This document shows, in pieces, positions 22,993 to 57,552 of a stretch of DNA of 64,000 bases (position 1 is the first letter of the stretch; every line of letters starts with the position of its first letter). Origin of the DNA: Sabellastarte sp. h YS-2021 (lineage: Eukaryota; Annelida; Polychaeta; Sabellida; Sabellidae). The notes beneath the pieces were generated by a model, which worked only from the letters and a program-made list of their open reading frames with translations, searched no databases and had not been told where the DNA came from. The stretch spans positions 4,898,001 through 4,962,000 of the forward strand of contig OZ024928.1 in NCBI GenBank assembly GCA_964017235.1, read 5' to 3'. The position numbers and the translations under genes are program-made.

Positions 22993-23992
22993 CTACGAAT
23001 GAAGCGTTCGCTTGAAAACTCGAGCTACTTGATCACCTGCAGTCGCAGCTGGACGAATGTATCTCCAAACGCATTCAGACGCCCAGGTGCCATGTTCCTT
23101 GATTTCCTTGACTGGTATGTCCAAATCATAAGCCAATGAAGCACCTGAGCGCCTGAAATGTGTAATAATTTGATGGCAAACCAATGGCAAGATTAATTTT
23201 TGATAAAGTTTTCCTGATACGCGTATCTGTGAGTACTTGCCATCCTGCAGCTGTTTGGACTTGGAACAAAGGTTCATTGTGCCCCGGATTATATAAGGCC
23301 ATTATTTTCTTCAACGCCCTGTAAGGACATATTGGGGACACCCCCAGCTTGGGAATAGTCACCATTCTGTATTCATCCCTGTATTGAATCGTCTTGGACC
23401 ATTTTAGGAGTAATTGAGCCTCGTTCTTTAAGAAGAATACATCGCCCCCAGTGAAATGCCTTGTACTGTCAAACTCGGTTATAGCATGGCGGGCCAAATT
23501 CGACAAGCGAAAGAAACCGAAGAACGCAGTCAAAAAGACAGCTTTAAAGACGTCTGCATGGGGGAATCTGTGACAACTCGCCACCATACGCTTAAGAGTC
23601 TTTATGTCTATGATATTTCTCTTTGTTAAGACCATGGGCCTGTGTAACTTCAGAGCTTTTATGAAATAACCGACTTTGGGCTGCCTCCATGCTTCATGAG
23701 GCAAATCATACAATATGGACATGGCCCTAATGGCCGAGACATGATTCATAACCATTTTAACAGACACCTCATTTTCCACCAAAAATTCCAGGTATGATAA
23801 CACTACTGAAACTGATACTTTTGATAGGTTAACCTTGGTAAACAGGCAAAATGCAACAAAGGATCTAAATAACATGTTTTTACATTTTACAGTTCTAGGT
23901 CGAAATGCAGACCTTGTTCTCACTGAAGCCTTTCTGGCATATTCTGTGCAACCGTCATTCTCTGAAATACAAAGTATAGCATCTGTAGCCAC
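22993..23992 (-). pseudogene. Element A tyrosine recombinase, broken by an 8-nt deletion
   Basis: A tyrosine recombinase (phage-integrase fold) that would join the circular DNA intermediate to the target. Visible: the N-terminal SAM-like core-binding part (SAFRPRTVKC), the first catalytic Arg (FFGFFRLSNLA), the Lys region (LKWSKTIQYRD), and after a frame change the second Arg (FRRSGA), HGTWASECVW and the Tyr (WRYI). Compared with element C (TFHAFRRSGA), eight bases are missing near 23150-23160. This removes the HxxR histidine and shifts the frame, so a functional enzyme is not expected. A 3' splice site (TATTTCAG, AG at 23962-23963) sits at the start in the same phase as in other copies. Confidence 0.9.
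23961..23985 (-). promoter_or_regulatory. 3' splice site before YR, element A
   Basis: On the minus strand CTTTGTATTTCAG ends at 23962. The next base starts an exon whose first two bases complete a codon of the YR frame. The equivalent pyrimidine-AG lies at the same place and phase in B, C, E and F. The 5' partner is unknown. Confidence 0.6.
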
Positions 23993-23996
23993 AATT

Positions 23997-26018: not shown

Positions 26019-26033
26019 CCCTATTGTTGCATT

Positions 26034-26267
26034 TTAATTGTCCTGACTGGGGACTTCATTGTGAAATTTTCTTACCTGAAACCTACTTTTTTGACACGGG
26101 CCAACATTATTTGGGTCCTTCATGCAGAAACTTGTAATGTTGTTATTCACAGAATTTTGATTCATAGTGATTTGGTTGCCCCTGACCACATCGGCATATG
26201 ACCTCACCCCCCTTTGAGGGTCCCTGATTCTATAAATTTTGAAGGAAAGATATAATACAAGATGCAA
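26034..26267 (-). pseudogene. Element A, N-terminal pol fragment upstream of an in-frame TAA
   Basis: This 77-codon stretch is in the same frame as the main pol frame and separated from it by TAA. It contains SYADVVRG, matched by SYADIVKG at the corresponding place in element D, so it is genuine pol N-terminus rather than chance. The start shown is not a real initiation codon; the element is cut off just upstream. Confidence 0.7.
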
Positions 26268-31665: not shown

Positions 31666-32804
31666 ATGGCAGAAGCGGCCACTCGTCCATATAATTTGAG
31701 GTCGAGGGAAGAAGTTGTGGAGTTGCCAGTGCAGCTACACTTGTCGGATGACAACAGATTCATGTCAAATCTTCTGGTCAGCGACAGGACACAGACTGGT
31801 CAAGTTTTGGGTTCTGATTCTTCAATTCATGATAGTGACTGTGATGCGTTGGTTAATAGTCCCCCTTCCAAAGCTAGTAGTTCCGGTCACACTGTTGTAA
31901 ATAAAAAATGTGAGTCGGATCCAACTTTGTCTGCTAACAATGATGTCAGTCAACAGGTCATAAATATGCAGATATTGAGCCAGTTAAAGTCGTTGGGAAG
32001 AAGGTTAGATGACATGGAGGCAAAAAATTGTAAAAAAACCAGTGATCAAACCAAAATTAAATAAAAAAACATCAAGAAAAAGGTCAAAAGTACCAAAACA
32101 TCAGTGGCCCCTGGTACTTCCATTGCTACTCCGGATCTTAACGTCTTGAGGCAAGATGCACTGATTCAGCTTAAGGTGGAGCAAAGGCTCAAAGAATTGC
32201 AGGAAACTGAAGAGCAAGGTAAATTAAAGACTTTGCGAGGTGGATCGGTAGAAGTAATGGTGAAACACAAGGTCAAATGGGCTCATGAATATGTACTCTC
32301 GGGTTCGAATAAGGAACGGGTCTCTTATGACCAACTCTCAGTGGTACAATGGGTGGATGGCTTTTGCGGGATAATGAAAGAAGAAAAAAATTCTGATTCC
32401 AAGGAATTCATGTCAGATTACCTAGATTCTTTGTTAGATGATGCCCAGGATTTTTCGTGGGAGGCGGCAAAAGCCAGCCATGCAGTGTTATGTCGCATGG
32501 AGCAAGGGGAAATTGAAAATTATTCCCAGATAGAGAAAACTGATCGGACCCTGCGTGCCAATGCACAGAGGCACATTCATCCTAGCAACCAATTTCATAA
32601 AAATCTTTGACAAAAACCCCAAAAGCAATGCCATGTCACTATTTTAACCAATGTACTTGCTCACATAGTAGGAGTCATGATACAAAGGAGTCAGGTACAA
32701 TCATGTGAGTACTGCTTGTTTTTCAAATGGAATGAACTTTCCCTCGTGCTGAGATAGATTGCAAAAATAAATTGAAGAAACCAGCTGGATCAAAAAATGA
32801 GTAG
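31666..32804 (+). pseudogene. Element E gag-like protein, broken
   Basis: It begins at ATG 31666 (MAEAATRPYNLRSREEVVEL). An in-frame TAA at 32062-32064 interrupts a Lys-rich stretch; the frame then continues through the conserved gag core (VMVKHKVKWAHEYVLSG, RVSYDQLSVVQWVDGF, DFSWEAAKASHAVLCRM). After 32610 the frame is shifted, and the CCCH-type cluster (CHYFNQCTCSHSRSHD) is readable with two stops. The frame ends SKNE-stop at 32804, exactly like the gag ends of B and C. Gag would package element RNA into particles in the cytoplasm. Confidence 0.8.
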
Positions 32805-32850
32805 GTGTGGGTACTAGTTGGGCAGGTCACCCACCACACATAGATTTGTA
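32792..32850 (+). promoter_or_regulatory. decayed -1 frameshift site, element E
   Basis: The heptamer A-AAA-AAT (32792-32798) is in the gag phase (TCA AAA AAT GAG TAG). It corresponds to A-AAA-AAC in B, C and D, with the last base probably changed by CpG decay. About six bases later GTGTGGGT can pair with ACCCAC(C)ACAC, giving a 6-8 bp stem. In the -1 frame the next codon is now TGA, so the copy could not express pol this way. Confidence 0.55.
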
Positions 32851-35203
32851 TATTCAAAAAATTTCAAAAATGCCCATCAAGAGATACAGGCCACCAAACA
32901 ACTTGCTTTGTCATGGTTTCGCAGATAGAAGTGTTTTGATAATCCTGTCCCACATAAATCCTATGCTGCTCATGTAAAAAGTAATGTTCAAAAACCCAAT
33001 GTTATGGTTGACAGTGTAAAACATCCAGACCCAAACACATTGTCAAAAATCCTGTGGATAGAAGTACTTCTTACTGTTCAGTTTTGAGTTATCCAGTTTC
33101 TTCAGCGAAACAAAGTTGCAAACCCTCCACTGTGGCCGGGGTCCCTGTAAAATATGGCAAATGTGTCCCTGCTAAGTACTGTGTCCAAGTACCTGCAAGT
33201 ACTGTCCTGTTGCATAACAAGTTTTAATGTTTACAACACTTGCGTGATTCACAAAATGTTGTGATTCATGATGTAAATCACATGCATCAAAGTGTAAATG
33301 AACAGGGCATGAATTCAGTACTCAGTGCTAAGTGCACTAATAGAAATTGCGCGAATCAGTACTTAGAGGAGTGCAAATCTTTACCTTCTCGTTCCCATGA
33401 TATGTTACAGCCCTTGTTGGCTGATCTGGCAAAACCTTCATTGCAAGGGAATAAAAACAAAACTGGGTCTTTTGGTGGGGAATCTATTGACATGGAGGAA
33501 CGGGACAATGATAGTGCATCAACCTCACAGAAGGTAGTTGATGTTATGGTCAATGATCAATCTGAAAATGTTGCTTATGCATCTTCTTATGTGCACAAAG
33601 AGCCACATTTGGCTTCCTTAAAAATTTGTACCTTTGAGAGCAATAAAAACGGAAATGGGTCTTTGGAAGGGCTTAATATAAGTAACTGGTGTTCACACTT
33701 GTCTGACTATTGGGATGTTCAATTGACGGATTTATTAGAGTGGGTTTCCTCTGGATGTTGATAGAGGTACCGTACTCACATCTACAGAAACTAATCATGC
33801 TTCAGCTTTGCAAAATTCTCAACATGTCCAGTCTTACATTGAGGAAGAACTGTCTTTCCAGGCAATGTTAGGCCCTTTTCAGGCTAAGCCTATATCTTTG
33901 CACATGTAAGTAAGTAAGTAAGTAAGTAAGAAACACTTATATAGCGCCGAATTTGATGCAAACATCCTCTAAGGCGCTGATGTGCAAAAAGGGATAGTCC
34001 AGTTCCAGAAAGATGTCCGTTTCCATATTAGCGTCCGGTAGGGGAAAAAGGCTATGGTGGAGGATAAGCCAATCTAAAAAGGTATGTTTTCAACTGTTTC
34101 CTGAAACCAGAAATGGTTTAAAGTTGACATAAGTCGTGCATTTAGGCAAATCAAAATAGATCCCAGAGACATTGACCTTTTAGGCTTAAAATTTCATGAA
34201 CAGTACTTTATTGATAGATCAGTACCATTCGGATATCAGAATGGGAGCCGGATTTTTCAGAGGTGCACAGATGCCGTATGGTTTACCATGCAACAACATA
34301 GCTTTCCTCATCTGTTTAACTATATAGATGATTTAATATACACTGGCCTACCCTCTGATATACACACTTCTTTTCACTTCCTGTTGAATTTACCACAGGA
34401 CCTAGGTTTGGACATTTCCCAAAAGAAACTAGTACCACCTTCTACGTCAGTGGTGTGTCTGGGCATTTGTATTGACATGGTTACCAGAACTTTGTCCATT
34501 CCTGATCAAAAATTAGCAGAAATTGTTGATATTTGCAAATCCTGGACTTCCAAAACTTACTGCAGTAAGAGACAGTTACAGTCACTCTTAGGCAGTTTAT
34601 TGTATATCAGTAAGTGTGTTAAACACGCTCATTTTTTCCTTAATAGAATGTTGGCTCTGCTCAGAAATAATCATCATATAGATAAGATATTATTGGATCA
34701 ACCATTTTTCCAAGATTTATCTTGGTTTAATACCTTTTTATGTCAGTTCAATGGTACCACTTATTATGATAAGAAATTCCCCAGTTCACAAGTATATTTA
34801 GATGTTTGTCTGACAGGTTTGGGGTCATTTTGATTCAATGGTATATGCCTTGGAAATACCTTTTGGTTATGGAAATTATGATATTTGCCATCTAGAGATG
34901 CTGAATATAGTAGTTGCTTCCAAGCTTTGGGCAGTACATTGGAAAGACAAGAAAATTAAAATATATTGTGATAACATGGCAGTTGTGCAGGTATTGAATA
35001 CGGGCAGGGCTCGGGATCAAATTCTTGCACCTTGTGCTAAAAATATCTGGTTAATTGCGGCTACTTATAATATTGAGTTCATATGTTCTCACATCTCTGG
35101 TCCCACCAATAAGATAGCAGACTTACTGTCCCGTTGGGCTTTAACAGTGAATCCTGTTGCTAAACTTCATATAGATCTGACATTGCTCAATTATAATATT
35201 TAG
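32805..35203 (+). pseudogene. Element E pol (RT - RNase H), broken
   Basis: Readable pieces: the linker (33240-33761; WCSHLSDYWDVQLTDLL), YIEEELSFQAMLGPF just before a 210-bp insertion, then KVDISRAFRQIKIDP, PFGYQNGSRIFQR, the active-site NYIDDLIYTG, and LVPPSTSVVCLGICIDM. RNase H follows after a frameshift near 34830 (LDVCLTGLGS; ICHLEMLNIVVA; YCDNMAVVQVL; NKIADLLSRW), ending LNYNI. The YIDD box itself survives, but a segment corresponding to roughly 80 residues before the first RT Asp is gone, replaced by the insertion. Confidence 0.85.
33905..34118 (+). mobile_element. (AAGT)n-led dispersed repeat inserted in element E RT
   Basis: It starts with AAGTAAGTAAGTAAGTAAGT and continues with AACACTTATATAGCGCCGAA and CTAAGGCGCTGATGTGC. 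This is a style of dispersed repeat (SINE or non-LTR 3'-tail-like) common in invertebrate genomes. It interrupts E pol, and the flanking pol sequence is not contiguous, so insertion was accompanied by deletion. Confidence 0.7.
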
Positions 35204-35225
35204 GCATATTTTTCGTACCCCTTTT

Positions 35226-35235
35226 TATGTTGTAG
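35226..35235 (+). promoter_or_regulatory. 3' splice site before YR, element E
   Basis: CTTTTTATGTTGTAG ends at 35235. The following two bases complete a codon of the YR frame (AC, then TTA CCT GGC). Position and phase agree with copies A, B, C and F. Confidence 0.6.
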
Positions 35236-35822
35236 ACTTACCTGGCGTGGCAGCCCAGCTGGATACCTTGGCTTCCAATATACTGATGTATGGCTTAAGA
35301 CCTTCCACATTGCAGCAATATGAACGTATGTGGAAGGATTTCCCAACTAGGCCACTGGCTAGAGCAGATTTTAATTCAGTCTATGAGGGGGCAGTCCTTC
35401 TCATCAAATGGAGCAAGACCATGCAGGACAGGAAGCAGGCGGTAATAATTCTACTGCCAAATTTAGGAGTCTCCCCCGTGTGCCCTATAAAAGCTATTCA
35501 ACAGATGATTCCGTTGGTTTCTGCTGACCCCAACGACCCACTGTTTCTTGTTCCCAAAAGTTCCTGTCTAGTCCCTCTCACTGATTCAGTTGCGAGAAAA
35601 CATTTAAAGAAAATTTCAAATGCATTACATACTACCACTTACCTTACATTTCATGATTTTAGGAGAGCAGGTGTCAGGTGGGCCTTTCAACAAGGTGTTC
35701 CTTTAGAACACATCATGAAACATGGCACCTGGAAATCGGATGCTGTATGGTCATACCTCTCTTCTTCTATCTTCATTTCTTCTCCTGTTTCTTTAGCTTT
35801 TCAGACAGCCCTACAGTCCTAG
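35236..35822 (+). pseudogene. Element E tyrosine recombinase with internal deletion
   Basis: An open frame keeps the N-terminus (LASNILMYGLRPSTLQQYER) and the C-terminal catalytic part: LIKWSKTMQDR, HxxR in FHDFRRAGV, HGTWKSDAVW and the Tyr in WSYL. About 100 or more residues between MWKDF and LARADF are missing, including the first catalytic Arg box (FFGF.R.SNL in other copies). The protein would therefore be inactive although the frame is open. It lies directly downstream of pol with a splice acceptor in between. Confidence 0.85.
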
Positions 35823-38824: not shown

Positions 38825-39048
38825 TCTAAAGTGGTGTCAGGGCATCACGGCTGTCAGTCCCCCCAGCCCAAGACTAGCCCAAGAAGTCGGGTTAGACCTG
38901 AGTTGGGTACCAGACTATGACCAGTGGGCATTGGGTTGAAATGTAAGGAGGTCTCTGATTGGTAGATTCATAAAGTGGTGGGAAAACTGGCTTCTTAAAT
39001 CTCAGTTACATAAATTCAGGACAGGAGGGTGGACGTGTTGATAATTTG
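38825..39048 (+). repeat. Element B, A1 direct repeat
   Basis: This 224-bp segment starts TCTAAAGTGGTGTCAGGGCA and is repeated without a visible difference at 44538-44761. It forms the 5' terminus of the element. Confidence 0.95.
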
Positions 39049-39392
39049 TTTTGAACCTGTCCTGTGTTATTGTTATGTGTTATATGAACTTTATTTTATT
39101 TGCTTTTAAATAGTTTTATGTGTGTTGTATGGAATGAACGGTCATTTAGTGTATTATTGACATTTTAACCTACATGTTATACAAGATTGATAGTGGACGT
39201 GGTTGCTGAACTCTGTGTGAATCTACAGTGAACTGTCATCGAGACAACCTCAGGCTTTATTCTGGCTAGGCAAAAGGGATGGTCAAACCTATTTTCTATT
39301 AAGTCCTTCGCAGTTTGCATAGCCGAAATTTAGACTGTGGTTGTATTGGCAGTTCCTAAGGTTTGTTGTGCCATTATTTCAGTATTGATAAC
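39049..39392 (+). other. Element B 5' leader
   Basis: 344 bp between A1 and the gag ATG. It has no long frame. It probably contains the transcribed leader and could hold the 5' splice donor that partners the acceptor before YR, but no donor can be chosen from one copy. Confidence 0.5.
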
Positions 39393-40568
39393 ATGGGAAA
39401 AAATAAAAATAAGTGCTGGGCATGTTCACAGAAACATTATCCGCCCACTGGAAAGAACTGTGTGTTTGCGAAAGAAAAGCAAGATACAGAGCAGGCAGTG
39501 GCTGAAGTACCGTCAGAAAATGACGCTCGGGACTCTTCATCGAGTAAGGTAGTAGTTAACAGAAAAGCAGTCGCACTAGAGAAGGACTCTGTGGTCAAGA
39601 AAGTATATACTGCTGGCCATGCTACCTATAGTGACTCAGAAGATGAAAGCTCGATGGAAGAGGGTGGACAGCTAGATATCCAGCAGAAGATTCTGTCTGA
39701 ACTACAGAAGGTCAGCTCGAGGTTGCAGGTGGTGGAGTCAAAGGTGGCGTCGGGACAGGGACACAGCAGGAGGATTAAAGATGGACGAAAGTTAAGTACT
39801 GTCAAACAATGTAAAAAACGTAACTGTCAAAAGTCATGTTGTGTTAAAACGTCCAGTAGTTCTGATAGTTCAGATGATGACACTGTATTACCCAATTTGT
39901 CTCATATAAGGGCGTCGAAGGTAATTCAGCAGCAAATAGACAGAAGTATTGCAAAGTTGGCAAAGAATCAATGTGAAGGTAATGAAAACTCACAAAAATT
40001 AAAATCTAAAAGGGGTGGCCCAGTTGATGTTATTGTACAGCAGAAAGTGTCATGGCCGCATGAACATATATTAGGTGGTCAAAATAGGCAAAGGTTAACA
40101 TATGACCAGATTACAATGCCTCAGTTTGTACAAGGTTTCGTAAAAAATATATTGGATGAGCAAAATCTGCAAAATAGGGAGCACATGTTACAATATCTAG
40201 GGGATATTATGGAAGATGCATCCGATTTCTCGTGGCAAAGTGCTAAGGCAAGTCATGCAGTTCTCCTTTGCGAGATGGAGAGAGGTAAGGTTACATGGCA
40301 GGACACCACCAGGATTGACAGGGTGAGAAGGGCTTATGCCCAAAAACATAGCTCGGGTAGACAAAATTGGGGTAAAAAAACTGGGGAGAAAAAACCGTGG
40401 TTTTGTAAACAATATCAGAGTGGCTCATGTACATTTGACAAGGATCATGAGACTGGGGGTAAAACTCATAGGCACATTTGTGCTACTTGCTTATCACAAG
40501 GTAGGCAACTCAGTCACCCAGAGCGTGAATGTCACTTTGCAAAGAAGGGTGTAGCAAAAAACGTATAA
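39393..40568 (+). CDS. Element B gag-like protein
   Basis: Intact, 391 residues from ATG 39393 (MGKNKNKCWACSQKHYPP). An N-terminal C-x2-C-x3-H...C motif may bind zinc; element D has the same spacing (CNKCGGSHPRP). A Ser/Asp/Lys-rich linker with a likely coiled-coil follows (ILSELQKVSSRLQVVESK). The conserved core is KVSWPHEHILGGQNRQRLTYDQ, DFSWQSAKASHAVLLCEMERG. The C-terminus holds a CCCH-like cluster (CKQYQSGSCTFDKDHE...CATCLSQGRQ). It ends AKNV-stop at a slippery heptamer. Role inferred from position: RNA-binding structural protein of the element particle. Confidence 0.88.
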   Translation: MGKNKNKCWACSQKHYPPTGKNCVFAKEKQDTEQAVAEVPSENDARDSSSSKVVVNRKAVALEKDSVVKKVYTAGHATYSDSEDESSMEEGGQLDIQQKILSELQKVSSRLQVVESKVASGQGHSRRIKDGRKLSTVKQCKKRNCQKSCCVKTSSSSDSSDDDTVLPNLSHIRASKVIQQQIDRSIAKLAKNQCEGNENSQKLKSKRGGPVDVIVQQKVSWPHEHILGGQNRQRLTYDQITMPQFVQGFVKNILDEQNLQNREHMLQYLGDIMEDASDFSWQSAKASHAVLLCEMERGKVTWQDTTRIDRVRRAYAQKHSSGRQNWGKKTGEKKPWFCKQYQSGSCTFDKDHETGGKTHRHICATCLSQGRQLSHPERECHFAKKGVAKNV

Positions 40569-40600
40569 GTGGCTGCTCATCTGCAAGTCAGGTGAGTGGC
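40556..40600 (+). promoter_or_regulatory. -1 ribosomal frameshift signal, gag to pol, element B
   Basis: Slippery heptamer A-AAA-AAC (40556-40562) is in the correct phase (GCA AAA AAC GTA TAA). After a 9-nt spacer, 40572-40583 (GCTGCTCATCTG) can pair with 40589-40600 (CAGGTGAGTGGC): 12 consecutive pairs including three G-U, loop CAAGT. The gag stop lies inside the spacer. Shifting -1 gives KKRIS and continues into pol. The same heptamer and -1 peptide start (KKR) recur in C and D. Confidence 0.85.
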
Positions 40601-42962
40601 GTCAAATATGCAGCAACTTCATGTGCACTTAGTGTTTTTAGTCAAAATGGAAAGATGGGTTGTAATGTAGCCTCAGATTGTGGGGGAACTAATGCTGACA
40701 TAGTGAAAAAAATTGAATCACCAGTTAGGTCTAGAGTGTTTACAAATTCGTCATATAGCATCAGAAATGTTAACGCACTCTTGGCCAGAGGTAATAAAAC
40801 CAAAATCTTGAAAAGAATGGCCACATTGCACACAAATTCAAGGTTGGTTCAAGGTGAGTGCAATCCAGTGGGAACAAAAATAGCGTCACTTGATAAACAA
40901 AACTCCTGTATTGACAAAGGCGTTGGACAGATTAATAGGGGTCACAATGCCAGTACCCGTTCTAGCCCAGTAGGTGTGAAGTCTATTCAAGGTAAGGAGG
41001 GTGGGGGTAGCGATGTAGTTGTTGCTAGCCAGCCTCCAACAATAGCTATTCAGAATGTGAGTGGGGAAAGTGACACTCCTAATGAATGTGGCATTGAAAA
41101 CTCTGAACAGGCTTTGTTGTATGATACTAATGGGTTGGATGATGACAAATTTGTCCATACAATATTTAACAAAGGTTTCAATCAAGTTGCAAGACGCCAG
41201 GCTGAATTGTCTTGCGTCAATTATCAACTATGGAAACAACAAAGCAAATTTGATTTTGGGTTTGTCCCTCTATCAGACTTTATAGCAATTCCAAATCATG
41301 AATGTTTGAATACAGATATAACTGACCCTAGTGCACTCCATAGACTGGTGAAAGCCAGTGGCACATACAATTTCTTGGGTGTCAAAATACCAGTGAGAAG
41401 TCAACTGAATGTAGATCAATGGGAGAAACATTTACAGGGCTACTGGGACACCCAACTCTTACAGCTTATCAAATATGGGTTCCCCATAGATTTTAATAGG
41501 CAGTCACCCTTGAGATGGGAAGACAAAAATCACAATTCAGCTCTTCAGTTCCCCCGAGATGTTGACGCTTATTTAGAAGAAGAGATACAATTTGGTGCCA
41601 TACAAGGTCCATACACAGAAAATCCCATCAAAAATTGTCATTTTTCACCTTTTTTAACTCGAGCAAAGAGTAATGCGTCACATAAGACGCGTCATTATAG
41701 ATCTGTCTTGGCCTAAGGATGCGTCTGTAAACCTAGGTGTTGATAAAAATTCCTACTTAGACCTGGACTTTCAGCTGACGTTTCCAACAGTTGATGACAT
41801 TCTTGACGCCTTCAATGATGTAGGCAGGGGTGCTTGCTTGTATAAAGTGGATATAAGTCGCGCGTTTCGCCACGTAAAGGTAGATCCCTTTGATTATGAC
41901 CTCTTAGGCCTCAAGTGGCGTGACGTTACGTTCTTTGATACGTGCCTGCCGTTTGGGAGCAGGCACGGGACGCAGATCTTTCAGCGTCTAAGTGACGCTG
42001 TGCGTTTCATGATGCGTCGTGACGGGTTTGACGTCGTCAATTACGTAGACGATTTTGTCGGTATTGGCGTCCCAAGCGTCGCGCAACGTTCATACGCCCA
42101 TTTATGTGAAGTACTTGGTGACCTTGGTCTGGATATTAGCGTCAAGAAGCTTGTAGCGCCATCCACAAAGGCAACATGCTTAGGCGTCGACATTAACACT
42201 GTAGACAGAACAATTGCCATACCTGAAGATAAGATGCGTCGTATTGAGAACATGTTACATGATTGGCAACTAAAAACATTTGCCTCGCGTCAGCAGCTTC
42301 AATCTTTGCTTGGCAATTTACTTTACATCCACAAGTGTGTCAAACCGGCTCGTATCTTCCTAAACTGTATGCTTCAACTTTTAAGGGATAAATATGACAA
42401 AAGTTCCATTACCTTGACCCATGATTTTCTACGTGACCTTAGGTGGTTTGTGAAGTTTGTCAGATCCTATAATGGTAAGTCATTTTTTGACCACAAGCCA
42501 ATTGAAGCCACTATTGAGTTGGATGCATGTCTCACTGGGTTTGGAGGTAGATGGGGTAGTTGGGTCTATCATGTACCAATCGAAAAGAAGTACAAAAACC
42601 TGGCCATAACTCAGCTTGAAACCCTCAATATCTTGGTGGCTTTGAGGTTATTTGCTTTTTACTGGCATAGGAAAAAGGTTCATGTCAGGTGTGATAATTT
42701 GGCAGCTGTGCAAGTGCTCACTTCGGGAAAGACCCGAGATCCATTTTTAGCAGCATGTGCCCGGAATGTTTGGATGGTTGCAGCTCAAGCTGACATCCAG
42801 GTGAAATACTCGCATATACCTGGCAGTAAAAATGAGGTAGCTGACATACTATCTAGGTGGACAAATTCTGATGCACAAATTAGTTTTTTACATTGTAAAG
42901 TTGAAAATCCTGTGTGGATGCACATTCCTGAAAACATATTGTATATTGATGATGAAATTTAG
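40562..42962 (+). CDS. Element B pol: RT - RNase H, one frameshift near 41685
   Basis: Entered by -1 shift from gag; the frame is open from 40529 to 41716. Linker motifs (KFDFGFVPLSDF; LNVDQWEKHLQGYWDTQLL) match A and C. Near 41684-41685 one extra base, judged against A (NRRVILDLSW), shifts the frame; from 41688 on the RT continues: RRVIIDLSWPKDASVN, YKVDISRAFRHVKVDP, PFGSRHGTQIFQR, active site NYVDDFVGIG. RNase H: LDACLTGFGGRW, TQLETLNILVAL, RCDNLAAVQVL, NEVADILSRW. It ends YIDDEI at 42962. The single indel in an otherwise fresh copy could be a sequencing error. The palm region carries a GCGTC-rich block. Confidence 0.9.
41670..42300. other. GCGTC/GACGC-rich block inside element B RT
   Basis: I count 15 GCGTC/GACGC pentamers in about 625 bp, in all codon phases, against well under one expected. 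TGACG/CGTCA cores are included (TTGACGTCGTCAATTACG). In the decayed copy C the equivalent places often read TGTC, CATC or GACAT, as expected from CpG loss. Confidence 0.75.
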
Positions 42963-42964
42963 AA

Positions 42965-43004
42965 CTAATTTATGCATAATTACAGACTCTACACTTTGTT
43001 TCAG
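42965..43004 (+). promoter_or_regulatory. 3' splice site before YR, element B
   Basis: A branch-like ACTAAT at 42964-42969 and the tract CTCTACACTTTGTTTCAG ending at 43004 form a strong acceptor. It lies between the pol stop (42960-42962) and YR. The two bases after it complete a codon of the YR frame. Phase-1 donor-like sites in this copy include CAAG/GTGAGT at about 40853 and CAAG/GTAAGG at about 40991, but the true donor cannot be picked. Confidence 0.65.
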
Positions 43005-43981
43005 GTGCTGGTCGTTTAAAAGAATTGCAAACAAGGGCTGCTGAAAGAGTGGAATCAGCATTCAGACCTAAAACCAGAAGGTGCTATGAACTGCTGTTTA
43101 GAAATTTTGTCGGTTTCTGTATATGCAGCAAGATTGTCATACAGTGTATCTCTTTGCAAGAAATCATGGCATATTTAGAATTTCTGGTGGAAAGCAATGT
43201 ATCTGCTAATATGTTGGCCAACAATATCTCAGCATTGAAAGCAAACTTTGTAAAGTGGGGTTTGAAATTCAAAATTTGGGATCATCCCCGCATCAAGTAT
43301 TTTTTAAAGTCTGTAAAAATAAACCGCCCACTATGCCCCACCCGCAGGAATATCATGTCCTTGGATATTTTGAAAAAACTGATCATAGCTTGTGACTCCA
43401 TAGAGTCGCATTATACATACAAAGCACTATTCCTAATGGCTTTTTTCGGTTTTCTGCGAATTTCCAACCTGGCACCTCACTCTTACTCGCAGTTTGATCC
43501 ATCAAGGCATTTGACGCCTTCAGATATAATGTTCAAAAAATCGACAATGATAGTGGTTTTGAAATGGTCAAAAACCATGCAGACTCGAGATCGAGTTCAT
43601 ACAATTGTCTTACCAAATTTAGGTTCCTCCATTTTGTGCCCAGTAAATGCGTTGAAGAAGGCTATGGCAGTGTATAGCCCTGGTCACAATGACCCTTTAT
43701 TTCAAGTTCTCACCAGAAAGGGTTTTAAATTGGTAACAGAATCTAGGCTTAGAAAAGTCTTGTCAAAATTGAATGTAAAATTGGGATTTGAGGCACATCA
43801 CTTCACATTTCACACCTTCAGGCGCTCAGGTGCCTCTTGTGCCTATAATGCACATGTGCCTTTGCAGAGTATCAAGACACATGGCTCCTGGGCGTCTGAA
43901 TGTGTCTGGACCTATATTCAGGAGGATGAAGCTAGGAGCTCAGAGATTGCTTCTTCTTTTAGTACTCTAATAAATGCATAA
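43005..43981 (+). CDS. Element B tyrosine recombinase
   Basis: Intact, about 325 residues when read from the splice acceptor; the frame has no ATG near its start, which supports expression by splicing. N-terminal core-binding part: AERVESAFRPKTRRCYELLF. Catalytic domain: first Arg in FFGFLRISNLA, Lys region LKWSKTMQTRD, HxxR in FHTFRRSGA, HGSWASECVW, and the nucleophile Tyr in WTYI. All key residues of the family are present. It is expected to integrate the circular cDNA. It ends just before repeat B1 (43998). Confidence 0.93.
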
Positions 43982-43997
43982 ATGTCTCCTTGGGCTT

Positions 43998-44537
43998 GAG
44001 GCTTTTTCATAATGTTCATGCAGTCAGACTTCATAAGTAGTAATACATGACTTTGACCTTTGACCTTCCTCTGGTTACCGTCCGTCTTTCACCTGTACAC
44101 AGGGGTGGGCCTGCAGTAGCCCAGGATTTTGACCCTTCAGGAATTTACATCAGAGGGGGGGGGGGAGGTCAGAGGTCATTGGTTGCTGAAATTACATTCA
44201 AATGCTAAACAGTAATTATCTTTTATAGTTTACGTGTGTACATTATTTATGAATATCATATCAAATCTAAAGTATATATTATTTTCAAGTATTCTATTAA
44301 AGGTTTTAATTTACTGATGTTGTTGTCTGTGTGTTTTAATCAGCTGTAACAATTTCATGGTGACTAATCTGTATGGCTGCATATGAACTTACAACTGCAT
44401 TTAGAGGAACTGTAATCTGTAAATACCAGTAGTTGAAGAATTGTATATGTATTATACTGAAATTAAAATGTATTATGTATTAATAAATCCAATGCTCCGC
44501 ATTTATTGTTTGCTTGTCTTGGGCTGGTTGGGGACTG
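43998..44537 (+). repeat. Element B, B1 direct repeat
   Basis: It starts GAGGCTTTTTCATAATG and ends GGGCTGGTTGGGGACTG, where A2 begins directly. It contains a perfect DR1 (TGACCT-T-TGACCT, 44054-44066), two further AGGTCA, an 11-G run, and AATAAA about 50 bp before the end. Confidence 0.95.
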
Positions 44538-44761
44538 TCTAAAGTGGTGTCAGGGCATCACGGCTGTCAGTCCCCCCAGCCCAAGACTAGCCCAAGAAGT
44601 CGGGTTAGACCTGAGTTGGGTACCAGACTATGACCAGTGGGCATTGGGTTGAAATGTAAGGAGGTCTCTGATTGGTAGATTCATAAAGTGGTGGGAAAAC
44701 TGGCTTCTTAAATCTCAGTTACATAAATTCAGGACAGGAGGGTGGACGTGTTGATAATTTG
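44538..44761 (+). repeat. Element B, A2 direct repeat
   Basis: It appears identical to A1 (38825-39048). It directly follows B1; a 95-bp unique stretch with CCCTCCCTCCC then leads into B2. Confidence 0.95.
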
Positions 44762-44856
44762 CCCTCCCTCCCTGCCCTTTGGTAAGATGTGATTTACTTT
44801 AAACCGGTTTTTAGGTTTTTATGGGTACTTGTTAACTTTTATTTTAATTTCTTTTA

Positions 44857-45405
44857 GAGGCTTTTTCATAATGTTCATGCAGTCAGACTTCATAAGTAGT
44901 AATACATGACTTTGACCTTTGACCTTCCTCTGGTTACCGTCCGTCTTTCACCTGTACACAGGGGTGGGCCTGCAGTAGCCCAGGATTTTGACCCTTCAGG
45001 AATTTACATCAGAGGGGGGGGGGGGGGGGGGGGAGGTCAGAGGTCATTGGTTGCTGAAATTACATTCAAATGCTAAACAGTAATTATCTTTTATAGTTTA
45101 CGTGTGTACATTATTTATGAATATCATATCAAATCTAAAGTATATATTATTTTCAAGTATTCTATTAAAGGTTTTAATTTACTGATGTTGTTGTCTGTGT
45201 GTTTTAATCAGCTGTAACAATTTCATGGTGACTAATCTGTATGGCTGTATATGAACTTACAACTGCATTTAGAGGAACTGTAATCTGTAAATACCAGTAG
45301 TTGAAGAATTGTATATGTATTATACTGAAATTAAAATGTATTATGTATTAATAAATCCAATGCTCCGCATTTATTGTTTGCTTGTCTTGGGCTGGTTGGG
45401 GACTG
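44857..45405 (+). repeat. Element B, B2 terminal direct repeat
   Basis: It matches B1 except for a G run of 20 instead of 11 (45014-45033) and one C-to-T difference (44380 / 45248). It ends in GGGGACTG at 45405. Element C sequence resumes right after. Confidence 0.95.
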
Positions 45406-45811
45406 CAGCCACTAGCGCTAAGGGAGTGATAGAGGGCCAGAGACAGATATTGGATCAGCCTCCAGAAGGTGAATCAGCCATTGGACAAGGTGGAGGACAG
45501 AATGGCACAGGAGCAGCATGGAGACAAGGGACAGAATGGCAAAAGCAGCAACAAGAAGTTAAGTAACTTTTGACAGCTTTGTGTAATAGTTAACAGTCAG
45601 GTAGTGAATCTTCTGATAAAGAACAGTACATTCCCACTTTAAACAAAATTAGGAAATCTGCCAAAATCCAACATCAAGTTGACAAAAGAATTAGGGAGCT
45701 AGAACAACAGAGTGAAATCGAAGATAGTCTGGGTAAAGTTAAATCCAAACGTGGTGGAAATGTAGAGGTTTTAGTAAAACATAAAGTTGCATGGCCCCAT
45801 GAGGCAATATT

Positions 45812-45832
45812 GGGGGGGGGGGGGGGGGGGGG
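45812..45832. repeat. 21-G run inside element C gag
   Basis: An uninterrupted G run located at the conserved ILGG codons of gag. Family copies have only a few G here. Confidence 0.9.
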
Positions 45833-46310
45833 TACTACATCCAGAGTATGATATGATCAGTTGACAATGTTGCAATGGGTACAAGGTTTCTGTAAAAACG
45901 TTTTGGAGGAACCAGACGATAATATTAGGGAGAAGATGATACAGTATATGGGGGAGTTTATAGAGGATGCCACAGACTTCTCGTGGCAGGGCACCAAAGC
46001 AACCCATGCTGTGTTGCTGTGTGAATTTGAGAGGGGGGGGGGGTTCCAATTGGGAAGACACAGCTCGGATTGACTGAATAAGAAGAGCCCACGCTCAAAA
46101 ACATTGAGTGGAGGTAAGATTTGGGTTAAAAATGAAAAAAATACAGAAATCTTGGTACTGCAAACAGTTTCAAAGTGGATCCTGTACATATAACAAGGAT
46201 CACGAAGTTAATGGAAAAATGCACAAGCATTTGTGTTCATTTTGTCTGTCACAGGGTCGATATTTAGGGCACCCTGAGAAAGACTGTATATTTAGTAAAA
46301 AGAGCAGTGC

Positions 46311-46323
46311 AAAAAACGAATAA
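46311..46323 (+). promoter_or_regulatory. -1 frameshift heptamer, element C
   Basis: A-AAA-AAC (46311-46317) in gag phase (GCA AAA AAC GAA TAA), as in element B. The -1 reading gives KKRISFC, matching B (KKRISGC) and D (KKRLGHC). The downstream hairpin is weaker than in B (TCCTT with AGGGA), probably through decay. Confidence 0.75.
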
Positions 46324-49300
46324 GCTTCTGTCCTTCTAAAAACCAGGGAATGGGCAGCAGTGCTTGATTCAGTGATATTGTGGGCGAAAAAATTGATGTT
46401 AAAGCATGTCATGAGTCAAAGGTAGAATAAATGATCAGTATTGACAGCAAAAAGGTCAAGGTCATATTGGGAGAAGGTTCTGCCTCCTCTTTCAAACAGT
46501 GTCACCATTTATTCTACAACAAAAATTGCAGCCCCTCAGAGGTGGAAAGCCTCCTAGTCCGTCCCATTGACCAATCTGTCAAAATATTTAAAGCCAGTGG
46601 GCAAAAGGCTATGACAAGATCAAATGCAGAGTTCGTTAAAGGTAGAAAAAATAGTACAAAGAATGTCCCCAGCTATAAAGTAAAAATAATAAAGTCGAAC
46701 ATTCTGGGCTACAAACCCTAACAAAGGCACTGACAATGATTGTTTTGACAGTTTATAGCCACATTCACGACAATGAGGTCATTAAAAGTGACAATAAAAC
46801 AGGAATAGATAGGGAGGGGGCGTTCTCTCACAGCACAATGGCCAATGCTCCCCTCTTTGCCATCCCCCAGGGCACATGTAGTGTAGAAAGGCTTGGGTCA
46901 CTGGGGAACTTAAACTACTAATTGTATCGAACAAAATTATTTATTGTACATTTTACCTAGTCAGAAAATCAAGTATTAAGGCATTTTAGTAACTTACTAA
47001 TCTTAACTTGTCGTTTTATATCTGCTTAAAATCAGTAGTAACATTCTCAGTAGTTAGTAGCTTAATTTTAATCCAGTTAACTTAGTAACTTAGTAATGTG
47101 TTAGTATTAATGTTAGGTCTTAGTATGTGTTGTTGTACAGTATATGTGATTACTAATAAATAATTTTTATCCCAACCTGACTTACTTCTTGGCTTGTGTT
47201 GGCTTGGCCTATTAGGGGCTATGCCTCTCAAGTCAGAAGTGATGACAGTGTTTATAGATCTACCTTAAGCGTTTGCTAGGTTGGGCCTTCAATCACATGA
47301 CTCTATTTTTGGCGCTCTGTGTTGTTTACCATGTGATTTCAAAGTGACCAGACATGGGAAATTAAATTCTCCCTCCCACCCTTCCCTCAATTGTGTGGCT
47401 ACTTTATGTATAGGGTAAATCCCATTACACTCCAACCCAACCACCACAACCATTTCCCACTTAGTAATCTCGATGTCACATGTAGTGTAGAAAGGCTTGC
47501 GTCACTGGGGAACTTAAACTACTAATTGTATCGAACAAAAATTATTTATTGTACATTTAACTAGTCAGAAAATCAAGTATTAAGACATTTTAGTAATTTT
47601 AGTAACTTAATAAGCTTAACTTGTAGTTTTATATCTGCTTAAAATCAGTAGTAACATTCTCAGTAGTTAGTAGCTTAATTTTAATCCAGTTAACTTAGTA
47701 ACTTAGTAATGTGGTAGTATTAATGTTAGGTCTTAGTATGTGTTGTTGTACAGTATATGTGATTACTAATAAATAATTTTTATCCCAACCTGGCTTACTT
47801 CTTGGCTTGTAATAATGATCATGATAACTCGCACAAAAGCACGTGCCTTATTGACACAGGAAAGGGTGACAATGATTGATCAGATACCCAACAAAAGTTG
47901 TTATTTGACATTATAAATACTCACAATGATAAGTTTATCAACTCTATTATTTTAATGATCAGAGTAAATTGACCAGCCTAAGACAATGCATTGCATATAA
48001 CCTTTGGTGCCAGCAATCAAATGTCAAGTTTGGGTTTATACCACTTACTGACCCTATTATGCCAAGCACTGATAAAGTCTCCACTATAAAATGCAAAAAT
48101 CTGGTAGAATTGCACGAGGAAGTTAAGAAACACAATTTGCCAAATTACTTGGGTGCACACATTCCTGTTACATCTCAGATGAATATTCACGCTTGGGAAT
48201 CATTATTGGAGGGCTATTGGGACAAACAGTTATTGGAATGTTTAAAATTTGGTTTTCCTTTGGGATTTAACAGAACTTGTCCTCTTAAGCATGACAAAGA
48301 AAATCACAAGTTAGCAGTAGAATTTCCAGAGCATGTCACCAAATGTATAGGGGAAGAACAAAAATTTGGGGGCATCATAGGCCCATTTGAAAAATCTCCA
48401 ATAAAAATCTTCATTATTCCCCATTCATGACAAGGAAATAAGCCAAATTCGGATAATAGAAGAGTAATTTTGGATTTAAGTTGGCCTAGGGGGGGAATCA
48501 GTGAATGCTGGAGTTGAAAAAATGGCTATATGGTATCTGACTTTAAGTTGATGTTCCCAATCGTTGATGATCTGATGCAAGAGTTGGTTAAAATTGGGAA
48601 AGGGGCACACATTTTCAAAGTAGATGCTAGCGCGGCCTTCAGGCACATGAATGTGGACCCGCATTATTATGAACTCTTAGGCGTCAACTGGGGTGTCGCA
48701 TTCATTGATACTAGAATTCCATTCAGCAGTCATCACGGAAGCCAGTTTTTCCAGAGGATAAGTGATGCAGTGCATGACATTATGCGTCAGCATGACATCA
48801 ACATCATAAATTATATTGAGGATTTTTTGGGATATGGCACACTGAGCATCGCACAAAATCTTTTGACACATTTCTTGATGTCATGACACAGTTAGGCCTG
48901 ACAGTCAGTGAAAAAAAGTTTGTAGAACCCACAACCAGAGCAGTTTGCCTGGGTATATTAATTGACACAGTGCAGTGTACTGTACCAATACCGCCTGAAA
49001 AGTTGGAGGTCATAAAGGAAATGGTCAAGGACTGCAGAGGAAGGAAGTTGTGTACTAAGCGTCAGTTACAGTCACTCTTTGGTATGCTACTGTACGTACA
49101 CAAATGCGTCAAACCAGCCAGGTATTTCCTAAATAGGATGCTGGCGATGTTACGTAATGTCAGTAACCCAGCTAGGGTTCAATTGAATGATGATTTTCAG
49201 AAAGATTTAGGGTGATTTGACAGGTTGTTGCCCATGTATAATGGGGTTTCCATGTATGCCCACACCAAGTCAAAATCCATTTTAGAACTTGACACCTATT

Positions 49301-49731
49301 TGACGGGTCTGGGGGGTAGATGGGACAATTTTGTGTACCATCTTTTCATAGTACGTGGATTCGCAAACCTGGACATTGTGCACCTGGAAATGGTCAATAT
49401 TGTCAAGGCCTTGCATTTGTTTGTTCGTTTTTGGTCTAGTACCAGAATTCTGGTCAAATGTTATAATGACGCCGTCGTTGAAGTGTTATATGCTGGCAAA
49501 GCCAGAGACCCATTCTTAGGTACATGTGCTCGCAACATATGGTACATGTTAATTTTGGCAGATGTGGATTAACAGTATGAACATGTCCTAGGTAGAGATA
49601 ACACAATAGCTGATTTATTATCTAGGTGGCAATTGTGTCAGCAAACTGTAGTACAACTTAAACAGTTCATTGAAAACCCTGTGTGGCTTCTTGTTAATGT
49701 GAACATGCTTGAGGTTGATTATAACTTGTGA
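46324..49731 (+). pseudogene. Element C pol (RT - RNase H), broken
   Basis: It is interrupted by relic G (46873-47810) and several stops and frameshifts. It resumes with DKFINSII and KFGFIPLTDPIMP, then NIHAWESLLEGYWDKQLL, as in A. The RT has KVDASAAFRHM, and its active-site box reads NYIEDFLGYG: the first Asp of YIDD is Glu. RNase H keeps GGRW and the VHLEMVNI glutamate, but CDND is CYND, losing a catalytic Asp. It ends DYNL at 49729-49731. Both enzymes are therefore dead by point change as well as by frame. Confidence 0.9.
46873..47810 (+). mobile_element. Relic G: B1-A2-B2 remnant of a third YR family inside element C
   Basis: Two direct repeats (46873-47197 and 47477-47810) match closely over about 325-334 bp and flank 279 bp. 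Both contain AATAAATAATTTTTATCCCAAC near the 3' end. The first copy continues TTGGCTTGGCCTATTAGGGGCT, a terminus similar in style to the GGCTGGTTGGGGACTG end of B; the second stops short of it. The middle part has CTCCCTCCCACCCTTCCCTC like the A segments of A and B. No ORFs or A1 are present. I also considered a miniature LTR element, but the repeats lack TG...CA ends. Confidence 0.65.
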
Positions 49732-49752
49732 AATTGTTGTTGCAGATACTAT

Positions 49753-49767
49753 GCTTTGTATTTTCAG
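49753..49767 (+). promoter_or_regulatory. 3' splice site before YR, element C
   Basis: GCTTTGTATTTTCAG ends at 49767, closely matching element A. An alternative AG after TTGTTGTTGCAG lies at 49744. The two bases after 49767 complete a codon in the YR frame (AT, AAC AAA GCC). Confidence 0.6.
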
Positions 49768-50750
49768 ATAACAAAGCCTTGACAGAATATGCCAGAAAGG
49801 CTTCAATATGAACCAAGTCTACCTTTCGACCAAGAACTGTCAAATGTTATAACATGTTATTTAGGTCCTTTGGGGCCTTTTGTTTGTTTGCTAAAGTAAA
49901 ATTATCACATGGGTCTGTATCAGCTGCATTGTCATATTTGGAATTCTTAGTGAAAAATGCTGTATCTGTAAATATGATCAACAACCATATCTCAGCCATT
50001 AGGGCTATGTCAATTGTATTTGATTTGCATTATGGGTCTTGGGAACATCCAAAAGTTAGATATTTTGTAAAGTGTTTGAAGTTACAGAGACCCATGGTAC
50101 TTCCCAAAAAGAATATTATAGATATAAACACATTGAAACGCATGGAGGCCTATGTCAGCAGTTTCCAAATGCAGAGGTGTACAGATCTGTCTTGTTAACT
50201 GCGTTCTTCGGCTTCTTTCGGTTGTCAAATCTCTCTCCACATGCAATATCTGAATTGGATAGTGCAAGGCACTTTACAGGGGGATACATATTCTTTCAAG
50301 AGAACAATGTTCAGCTCCTAGTAAAATGGCCCAAGACCACACAGTATAGAGATGAGTACAAATTAGTGGCATTGCCAAAGTTGGGTGCTTCCCCGATATG
50401 CCCCTACAGGGCCCTCAAAAATGCCATGAGATTGTATAATCCTGGAAAAAAATTCATCTTTGTTTCAGATTACGGAGGCTTCCAGTTGGCAGGTATTGAC
50501 AGACACATTACTTAGGAAAAATCTAGTAAAAATCAATCAGTACTTGCACCTTCCATCGAATTATTACACCTTCCATGCTTTCAGGCGCTCAGGTGCTTCT
50601 TTAGCGTATGAATTAAATATATCAGTGAGAGAGATTAAATTACATGGTACCTGGGCATCTGACTGTGTTTGGAGGTATATTCGTTCAACTGCATCAGCAG
50701 GTCACCAGGTTTCCCATACATTCAAAAGAGTGCTTCAGGATAAACAATGA
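49768..50750 (+). pseudogene. Element C tyrosine recombinase, frameshifted
   Basis: Three overlapping frames together cover the protein: N-terminus TEYARKAS and MLFRSFGAFCLFAK; first Arg in FFGFFRLSNLS; Lys region VKWPKTTQYRD (Ser to Pro relative to WSKT); HxxR in FHAFRRSGA; HGTWASDCVW and the Tyr in WRYI. Frameshifts lie near 50150 and 50460, and a stop occurs early (TGA at about 49809). The catalytic residues are all still readable, in contrast to copy A, where the HxxR His is deleted. Confidence 0.88.
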
Positions 50751-53818: not shown

Positions 53819-54795
53819 TTAGGCAGAGAGTAGGGACTGAAAAGTAGAAGCGACTTTATCAGTGACATTATGGTCCTGGGTGATATAGGACCATACGCAG
53901 TCAGAGGACCAGGTCCCATGACTCTGAATGTCTTGGAGTGGAACGCTGGAATTAAACGCCAAAGTGGCACCGCTTCTCCTAAAGGAGTGGAATGTGATTT
54001 TGGAGTTATGTAACTGGAGAGAAAGATGGATAGAGGCCAATGCTCTTCTTAATCTGGAATCTGTCAAAGGAACCCATTGTTGTTTATATTTAATTTGAAA
54101 TAGGGGTTTGTTGTCACCAGAAGGTGTGATTAGCAACAAATTTTTAAGGGCAGACACTGGTCATAAGGGGGAGTTAGTAAGTGAGGGAATTTTGAGAAGA
54201 CGGACTTGATTTTTGGATTGGAGTGTCTTAGACCATTTAATCAGGATATGGGCCCCGGGGGGGGGGGGGGGGGGGGGGGGGGGCAAAAAATATGTCAGCT
54301 CTTGCAAGTTGTTCCAAGGGATTAAATGTCTGCATGGAATGTGGAACTAAATTGGAGATACGTAGGAAGGAAAAGAATGAGAGGAGGAATGCAGCTTTAA
54401 AAATCTGACCCATACACATGTTGTCGCACTTTGTTACAATAGCCTTCAGAGTGTCAACATCAATGACCGTTTTAAGTGAGAGGGGCAGCAAGGGTAAGGG
54501 ATCTGGTGAAATACTTTATCTGTGGATGAGAAAAGGGGGAAAGATCAAGACCATAGATGGATAGATTAGCCTTGATAGCCGACAAGTAATTTGCAATGCT
54601 GGCAGTGGATGCACCATTAAAAACTAAAAATTCAATGAAGACTAGGATGTGATTAGTATTAAGGTGGAAAATTGAAAATTGAGCAAAAATGCAAAAAGCT
54701 ATGAATATCCTAAACTTGGTAGTATAAGCCTTGGTGGTGGAGTGTCGAAATGCCAGTTGTAGACGCTGGTGGGCCTTTGACAGCAATGGACTATC
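53819..54795 (-). pseudogene. Element D tyrosine recombinase, broken
   Basis: Readable in pieces: KAHQRLQLAFRHSTTKAYTT (core-binding part), first Arg in SFFSFLRISNLVPH, then a poly-C expansion (plus-strand G27 at 54257-54283), ILIKWSKTLQSKNQ, HxxR in FHSFRRSGA, HGTWSSDCVW and the Tyr in WSYI. Breaks: a frameshift near 54480, the homopolymer, and an in-frame TGA at 54161-54163 where TGC (Cys) stands in relatives. The catalytic residues survive. A splice-like TTTCTATAG (AG at 54796-54797) precedes it, but its phase differs from the other copies. Confidence 0.87.
54257..54283. repeat. 27-G run inside element D YR
   Basis: This is the longest homopolymer in the window. It sits where the YR frame would read a short Pro/Gly turn before the ILIKWSKT strand, and translates as polyproline on the minus strand. 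Confidence 0.9.
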
Positions 54796-54806
54796 CTATA
54801 GAAATA

Positions 54807-57320: not shown

Positions 57321-57341
57321 TTGATGGTTAACCTTTAAAGG

Positions 57342-57545
57342 TCAATTAACAGAATTTTTACCATATGCTTGGTGAATTGTGCCTTTAACAATATCTGCAT
57401 ACGAGACATTAGAATAGTAATGCCAGGTTGCCTTCCAGTTATGGGCCGGTATGCTTTTAAGCTGTGAGTTATAAATAACTCGGTCTGGGAATTTTTTTAC
57501 AATTTTCATCCCTTGTAGGCACTGCATTTAAGCAGTGCCCAAGTC
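57342..57545 (-). pseudogene. Element D pol N-terminal fragment
   Basis: It lies between the gag heptamer and the main pol frame. In the -1 frame the first codons read KKRLGHC, like B and C; that frame stops after about 20 codons. The gag-phase frame after TAA reads KKFPDRVIYNSQLK and SYADIVKG, in phase with pol up to TGA 57342. An A7 run near 57487-57493 is where the two readings could have been joined before an indel. Confidence 0.65.
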
Positions 57546-57552
57546 GTTTTTT
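57518..57552 (-). promoter_or_regulatory. -1 frameshift signal, element D
   Basis: The minus-strand heptamer A-AAA-AAC (57552-57546) is in gag phase (TCA AAA AAC GAC). Six bases later GGCACTGC pairs perfectly with GCAGTGCC, loop TTAAAT, extendable by one G-U and one U-A pair. The gag stop TAA lies in the loop. This is an independent instance of the arrangement in element B. Confidence 0.82.

Follow-up and report, generated by a model that had tools for sequence, protein, structure and literature searches.

An in-phase slippery heptamer and a predicted downstream hairpin point to programmed −1 frameshifting between gag and pol in Ngaro-like retrotransposons

Introduction

Retroviruses such as MMTV, EIAV and HTLV-1 use the heptamer A-AAA-AAC at their gag-pro or gag-pol −1 frameshift sites, and the RNA structures stimulating retroviral frameshifting are often pseudoknots. 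According to the accessible portion of a review (PMC5009743), A_AAA_AAC belongs to the −1 heptamers on which mammalian ribosomes shift most readily, pol lies in the −1 frame in 28 of 51 animal LTR retrotransposons surveyed in 2003, and the Sirevirus retrotransposons of plants have gag and pol in two frames together with a conserved, covarying stem of 11 bp with a 4-nt loop; neither DIRS elements nor tyrosine recombinases are mentioned in that portion. For the Ngaro elements of Xenopus, fungi and Cafeteria, the accessible text of published accounts (PMC9210276, PMC3783388, PMC8547959) describes gag, reverse transcriptase/RNase H (RT/RH) and tyrosine recombinase (YR) genes along with split direct repeats, with overlapping frames in Xenopus and, in fungi, a YR open reading frame which may be frameshifted relative to RT-RH. 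A further account (PMC3266345) states, in its accessible part, that Ngaro elements do not usually have overlapping open reading frames.

Here we describe Ngaro-like elements in which, very probably, a programmed −1 ribosomal frameshift signal serves to make Gag-Pol, and we find the same kind of signal, as recognized from sequence, across numerous families in a single large genome. The mechanism as such is known; a gag-pol frameshift signal in Ngaro- or DIRS-like elements was not found described in the accessible open-access literature, and the founding Ngaro papers, available by subscription, may mention one.

Results

Element B and its gag-pol junction

The window (that is, the whole 64-kb stretch of DNA analysed) contains the retrotransposon which we refer to as element B (38825-45322, forward strand), with matches to RT, RNase H and YR in Pfam located between its split direct repeats (A1 38825-39048 and A2 44538-44761; B1 43998-44454 and B2 44857-45322). 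The repeats, whose order A1 ... B1 A2 B2 was established for element B only, flank genes arranged in the order and orientation gag, RT/RNase H and YR, as for the Ngaro-like class, and no Pfam match to a methyltransferase domain was obtained at E 0.001 in the frames of element B that were scanned. Based on gene order, split direct repeats and the lack of a methyltransferase match, we classify element B as a Ngaro-like YR retrotransposon. Its Gag, which has no Pfam match and was assigned from position and a zinc-finger-like motif, has at least 88 related proteins. The gag frame is open from stop to stop over 39360-40568, with a first ATG at 39393, the zinc-finger-like motif at the C-terminal end and the TAA stop at 40566-40568. 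The pol frame (40529-41716) is −1 relative to gag and overlaps it by 40 nt (40529-40568); the remaining pol, comprising RT and RNase H as seen from the open frame and Pfam, follows in another frame (41658-42962), which shows that this copy is broken by a frame change somewhere between 41658 and 41716. The YR frame, with its Phage_integrase match, extends from stop to stop over 42980-43981.

The first-pass annotation of this DNA had placed A-AAA-AAC at the end of gag in the correct phase, followed by a 9-nt spacer and a 12-bp stem-loop, with gag and pol overlapping there in the −1 frame, and each of these points was borne out. The heptamer occupies 40556-40562 in the phase of gag (A AAA AAC GTA TAA), and the −1 frame reads AAA AAA CGT ATA AGT, i.e., KKRIS. 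The spacer (40563-40571) includes the gag stop and leads into the predicted stem-loop (40572-40600; arms 40572-40583 and 40589-40600, loop 40584-40588), which represents what we term the type II stimulator. The fold containing this stem has a free energy of −20.9 kcal/mol (z −4.41), which none of 200 shuffled sequences equalled, and its helix is kept in relatives through compensatory changes.

Other elements of the window

The window is crowded with further YR retrotransposon copies (22996-26057, reverse strand; 32131-35822, forward; 45576-50723, forward; 53822-58471, reverse). Elements C (46311-46317, forward) and D (57546-57552, reverse; D is locus L031) likewise carry the heptamer in phase with Gag, and the −1 peptides KKRISGC, KKRISFC and KKRLGHC given earlier for B, C and D are correct. 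In element D, the heptamer is followed after 6 nt by a strong predicted hairpin of type I (GGCACTGC-TTAAAT-GCAGTGCC, 57518-57539, reverse strand; z −5.83, 0 of 200 shuffles equally good), and the −1 frame of this damaged copy stops after 27 codons. The stem downstream of the heptamer in element C is no better than chance (z −1.22, 23 of 200 shuffles equally good), and this copy is also damaged, with gag and pol matches split between frames. Within element C, at 46873-47810, two near-identical blocks stand in direct repeat (64-nt and 222-nt pairs, ∼610 apart), which may be a short insertion bearing long terminal repeats. The element at about 32.1-35.8 kb has AAAAAAT at 32792-32798, possibly a decayed heptamer, to which no phase can be assigned because gag is broken there. 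A distant Ngaro-like element (59468-62356, forward strand), whose Gag is about 24% identical to that of element B, has no slippery heptamer at its gag end; hence, the signal is not universal among Ngaro-like elements.

Conservation of the heptamer

As a bare sequence AAAAAAC is common, with 25 occurrences in the window compared with 34.1 in shuffled sequences, so that it gains weight only from its phase, position and conservation. We therefore searched the host genome (1.786 Gb, 647 contigs) with the junction of element B, yielding at least 44 DNA matches of which 30 were taken for analysis, and with the RT protein, yielding at least 87 matches of which 30 were taken along with 20 small junction regions; since these searches score the best candidates only, the counts are lower bounds. 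Junctions were anchored on the zinc-finger-like motif of Gag, that is, independently of the heptamer. AAAAAAC is in phase in 52 of the 62 anchored rows, corresponding to 50 of 60 distinct places since L001 and L031 repeat copies of the window; the 50 include three copies (L056, L069, L072) from which the hairpin is deleted. When the 60 places are clustered at 80% identity, 10 of 12 clusters have the heptamer (18 of 23 at 90% and 5 of 7 at 70%), and the two 80% clusters without it are single copies, L070 and L079, both with AAAAAAT. The 21 of 80 loci which gave no match to the Gag motif were left outside this count. The heptamer is in phase in 14 of them (L026, L033, L034, L037, L040-L047, L051, L052) and present in L078, where gag and pol are fused; L021 and L028 are decayed and without it, the junction is absent from L015 and L029, and no heptamer was found in L053 and L055.

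A search with the Gag protein P0022, whose tail includes KN, gave at least 104 matches, from which 47 further Gag-anchored junctions were chosen for their spread of identity. AAAAAAC is in phase in 46 of these, a number which includes one fused (L121) and one truncated (L124) junction as well as one with a spacer shorter by one base (L091); 37 of the 46 are unique over 55 nt. The heptamer thus stands in the phase of the upstream gene and inside the gag/pol overlap, as at a −1 frameshift site.

Where the two genes of an anchored copy are in different frames (L056, L069 and L072 left out), they overlap by 22-73 nt and pol opens 3-60 nt before the heptamer; in the further set, overlaps reach 76 nt where the pol opening falls within the extracted piece. 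The gag stop of unfused copies ends 10-64 nt from the heptamer start. The change of frame must fall within the overlap, and it is there that the heptamer sits. Among the copies compared, no conserved pol start codon was found. The −1 frame is open from the heptamer for 850-974 codons into RT in L034, L039-L041, L043, L045, L059, L060 and others; pol is thus open through the signal in relatives, while copies B, C and D of the window are themselves broken.

Two types of downstream hairpin

In D-like families, the type I hairpin GGCACTGC...GCAGTGCC is located at a fixed distance of 6 nt 3' of the heptamer. Its exact full pattern, which excludes the spacer of D-like copies with TTAAAT, occurs 463 times genome-wide, and the reversed control does not occur. 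With the heptamer masked, the hairpin with a 6-nt loop gave 953 strand matches, the first 100 of which represent 78 places; AAAAAAC stands at the fixed distance in 63 of these and AAAAAAT in 6, each a C-to-T change beside G. Both strands matched at 22 of the 78 places, for which the better orientation was taken, and among the places with a single orientation 45 of 56 are exact. In the first 100 of the 463 matches the loop has 6 nt in 87 cases, 3 nt in 12 and 8 nt in one, so that 99 of these loops have a length divisible by three, as though translation ran through them in the −1 frame. The bases closing the loop, left free in the pattern, form Watson-Crick pairs in 30 of the 33 distinct 6-nt loops from the same 100 matches (A-T 19, C-G 8, T-A 3; 0 of 20000 shuffles), and the next bases inward do not (4000 of 20000 shuffles). 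In the type I alignment of 25 sequences (29 references without L056, L069 and L072, in which the hairpin is deleted, and L073, which has a loop insertion), nine sequences, those of D and its closest relatives with the loop TTAAAT, are unpaired at the loop-closing position.

In B-like families, the type II hairpin GCTGCTCAG...CTGAGCAGC begins at a fixed distance of 9 nt, and its stem mostly follows GCTG[CT][CT]CAN ... NTGRGCAGC. The first, smaller hairpin alignments (for type II, 16 references without L025 but with element C of the window) showed modest covariation, with 12-22 of 500 shuffles reaching the values for pairing and score, and it was after these weak counts that a larger type II set was made. 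It comprises 34 distinct sequences, namely the 37 unique junctions without L083, L087, L091, L093, L105, L121 and L124 (near-duplicates, broken or truncated), to which L001, L007, L017 and L030 were added. Here, 98.7% of the cells are paired and 14 cells are changed on both sides, each value being reached by 0 of 500 shuffles; the count of pairs with a change on both sides is 2, which 152 of 500 shuffles reached. The pair at the loop end occurs as GC, GU, AU, UG, CG and UA, sliding the arms reduces pairing to 17-51%, RNAalifold alone predicts the same helix with the same 9 pairs, and the loop gaps have lengths divisible by three. Prediction and covariation hence place an RNA structure 6 or 9 nt downstream of the heptamer, element C being the exception.

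Variant and fused junctions

Eleven of the 107 anchored places lack the exact heptamer. Gag and pol are fused in frame by an extra A in L005 and L035, AAAAAAT replaces AAAAAAC in L010, L027, L070 and L079, the heptamer has other substitutions in L024 and L025 and deletions in L016 and L066, and L085 combines an extra A with a substitution. In addition, L069 and L078 (96.4% identical) have in common a 23-nt deletion of the gag stop and the hairpin which creates a single gag-pol frame, and separate deletions have the same effect in L072 and L121; the A run is kept in all four. Searching the genome for the exact L069 junction gave a single occurrence. These four copies look like derived losses within signal-bearing families. 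To judge from their sequences, the deletion common to L069 and L078 has been propagated at least one time, whether by transposition or by duplication. This implies that one fused copy was multiplied, either unaided or with help, and argues that a fused Gag-Pol is compatible with copying, perhaps given help. Related intact copies without the heptamer, or with both genes in one frame, had been named at the outset as telling against frameshifting; a few such copies do exist, but they look derived.

Two attempts to extend the comparison to other species were abandoned. Viral contigs yielded 18 RT and 112 Gag alignment pattern matches, none of which was confirmed, and the single Gag homologue that was tested, P0022, matches a locus of this same genome at 100% identity, so that Gag homologues cannot be counted as cross-species evidence. 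Among the homologues, P0021 has RN instead of KN at the site; KN is missing from the ends of two Mytilus edulis records and of another protein that shares their tail and aligns over 42% of the query at 30% identity.

Discussion

Taken together, the phase of the heptamer, the short overlap, the hairpin with its compensatory changes and the loop lengths make −1 frameshifting the best explanation, and the reading offered by the first-pass annotation is supported by the in-phase heptamer in most 80% clusters, the compensated hairpin at fixed distance and the loops in threes. Ribosomes translating gag would be made to pause by the stem-loop that follows at 6 or 9 nt, with tRNA-Lys and tRNA-Asn occupying A-AAA-AAC; a fraction would slip back by one base into pol and produce a Gag-Pol fusion as a minor product, and the remaining ribosomes would terminate at the gag stop, releasing Gag. 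From what can be read in the DNA, we infer slippage at this place, as we do its efficiency, a Gag:Gag-Pol ratio and a retrovirus-like role in particle assembly.

Pol might instead be translated on its own, by ribosomes that reinitiate or initiate internally close to the gag stop, which does adjoin the pol opening, the heptamer then being incidental. A pol-frame ATG follows the heptamer soon in some copies (after 3 codons in L064, L065 and L068; after 12 in L017-L020, L022 and L023), but where such an ATG precedes a stop, the first one follows the heptamer at a distance of anything between 3 and 355 codons. Unlike the heptamer, the spacing and the stem, it is not conserved, and the upstream ATG of element B at 40529 is common to L002-L004 and absent from the other B-type families compared. 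We thus consider separate initiation very unlikely. An alternative in which the A run makes RNA polymerase or reverse transcriptase slip, shifting the frame in RNA or DNA rather than on the ribosome, deserves equally little credence. One extra A is indeed what joins gag and pol in L005 and L035, an extra A is also found in L085, and in L058 the A run is longer without loss of the in-phase heptamer. Yet the run is normally no longer than six A before the C, and in phase; an extra A disrupts the heptamer at just 3 of the 107 anchored places, and such slippage needs no compensated stem at a fixed distance.

It may further be asked if the conservation merely reflects protein sequence, i.e., a need for the KN of the Gag tail and the KKR at the start of Pol. 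In an alignment of 28 Gag tails, picked for completeness from at least 88, K and N do not vary, and KKR recurs in Pol. The choice of codons, however, is nearly fixed: elsewhere in Gag, AAA and AAG make up 0.605 and 0.395 of Lys codons and AAC and AAT 0.316 and 0.684 of Asn codons (third-position A is 0.323 of NCN codons), so that synonymous alternatives to AAA AAC are frequent in the same genes yet rarely used at the site, with AAG in 0 of the 78 masked places from the first 100 of 953 matches. By codon choice alone, 10 or more of 12 clusters would be expected with a probability of ∼5e-11 if they were independent; the clusters are related, and the value is a guide only. Moreover, the stem pairs stay paired through changes on both sides, while linker and spacer residues vary, and a purely protein-level constraint appears the least probable of all, to the point of being negligible.

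How the third gene would be expressed is a separate matter. Between the pol stop and YR of element B (42960-43010), a pyrimidine-AG sequence resembling a splice acceptor is present (TTTGTTTCAG followed by GTGC, with AG at 43003-43004). An acceptor-like site also follows the pol stop in the element at 23997-26033 (reverse strand) and in all 26 D-like loci for which the pol end was found (L031-L060; it was not found in 4 of 30); the site has the same YR phase in B, the element at 24-26 kb, L032/L034 and L059/L060, and not in the D copy of the window. This suggests a spliced YR RNA. No splice donor for YR was found, and a candidate at the CEMERG sequence of Gag was dropped as D-type families have no CEMERG donor. 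In L034, L039 and L040, an ATGATG in the YR frame overlaps the pol stop, making reinitiation an alternative for YR in that subfamily. A complete retrovirus-like plan, with Gag made alone, Gag-Pol by −1 frameshifting and the tyrosine recombinase from spliced RNA, is conceivable but doubtful; were it true, expression in the style of retroviruses would be older than, or independent of, LTRs and DDE integration.

If −1 frameshifting is confirmed, YR retrotransposons, the expression of whose open reading frames is little described in the accessible open-access literature, make Pol like a retrovirus, and the stoichiometry of Gag to Gag-Pol would be a need shared by retroelements with unrelated integration enzymes. 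Programs calling open reading frames, and repeat libraries, would then wrongly split Gag and Pol into separate genes. Hundreds of natural cassette variants, two types of stimulator and natural hairpin deletions make the rules for heptamer, spacer and stem directly testable.

Comparison with known systems

Retroviral sites share with the signal described here the heptamer, its phase, a short spacer, a 3' RNA structure and the relation of gag to pol; unlike retroviruses, which have LTRs and a DDE integrase, the elements have a tyrosine recombinase and split direct repeats, and simple stem-loops are predicted in place of the pseudoknots frequent in retroviruses. The Tec2 element of Euplotes reportedly has a programmed frameshift in its tyrosine recombinase gene and would thus be another YR mobile element using such a shift, albeit a ciliate transposon shifting within YR rather than between gag and pol. 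The Ngaro elements of Xenopus, fungi and Cafeteria share gag, RT/RH, YR and split direct repeats, but the accessible text of their descriptions (PMC9210276, PMC3783388, PMC8547959) contains no gag-pol frameshift signal. Sireviruses, as portrayed in the accessible part of the review cited above, likewise divide gag and pol between two frames and have a conserved stem showing covariation, their pol being in the +1 frame. According to the same source, finally, animal LTR retrotransposons have the −1 gag-pol junction in common with the present elements, many of them with classical heptamers, and it is the tyrosine recombinase which sets the elements described here apart from them.
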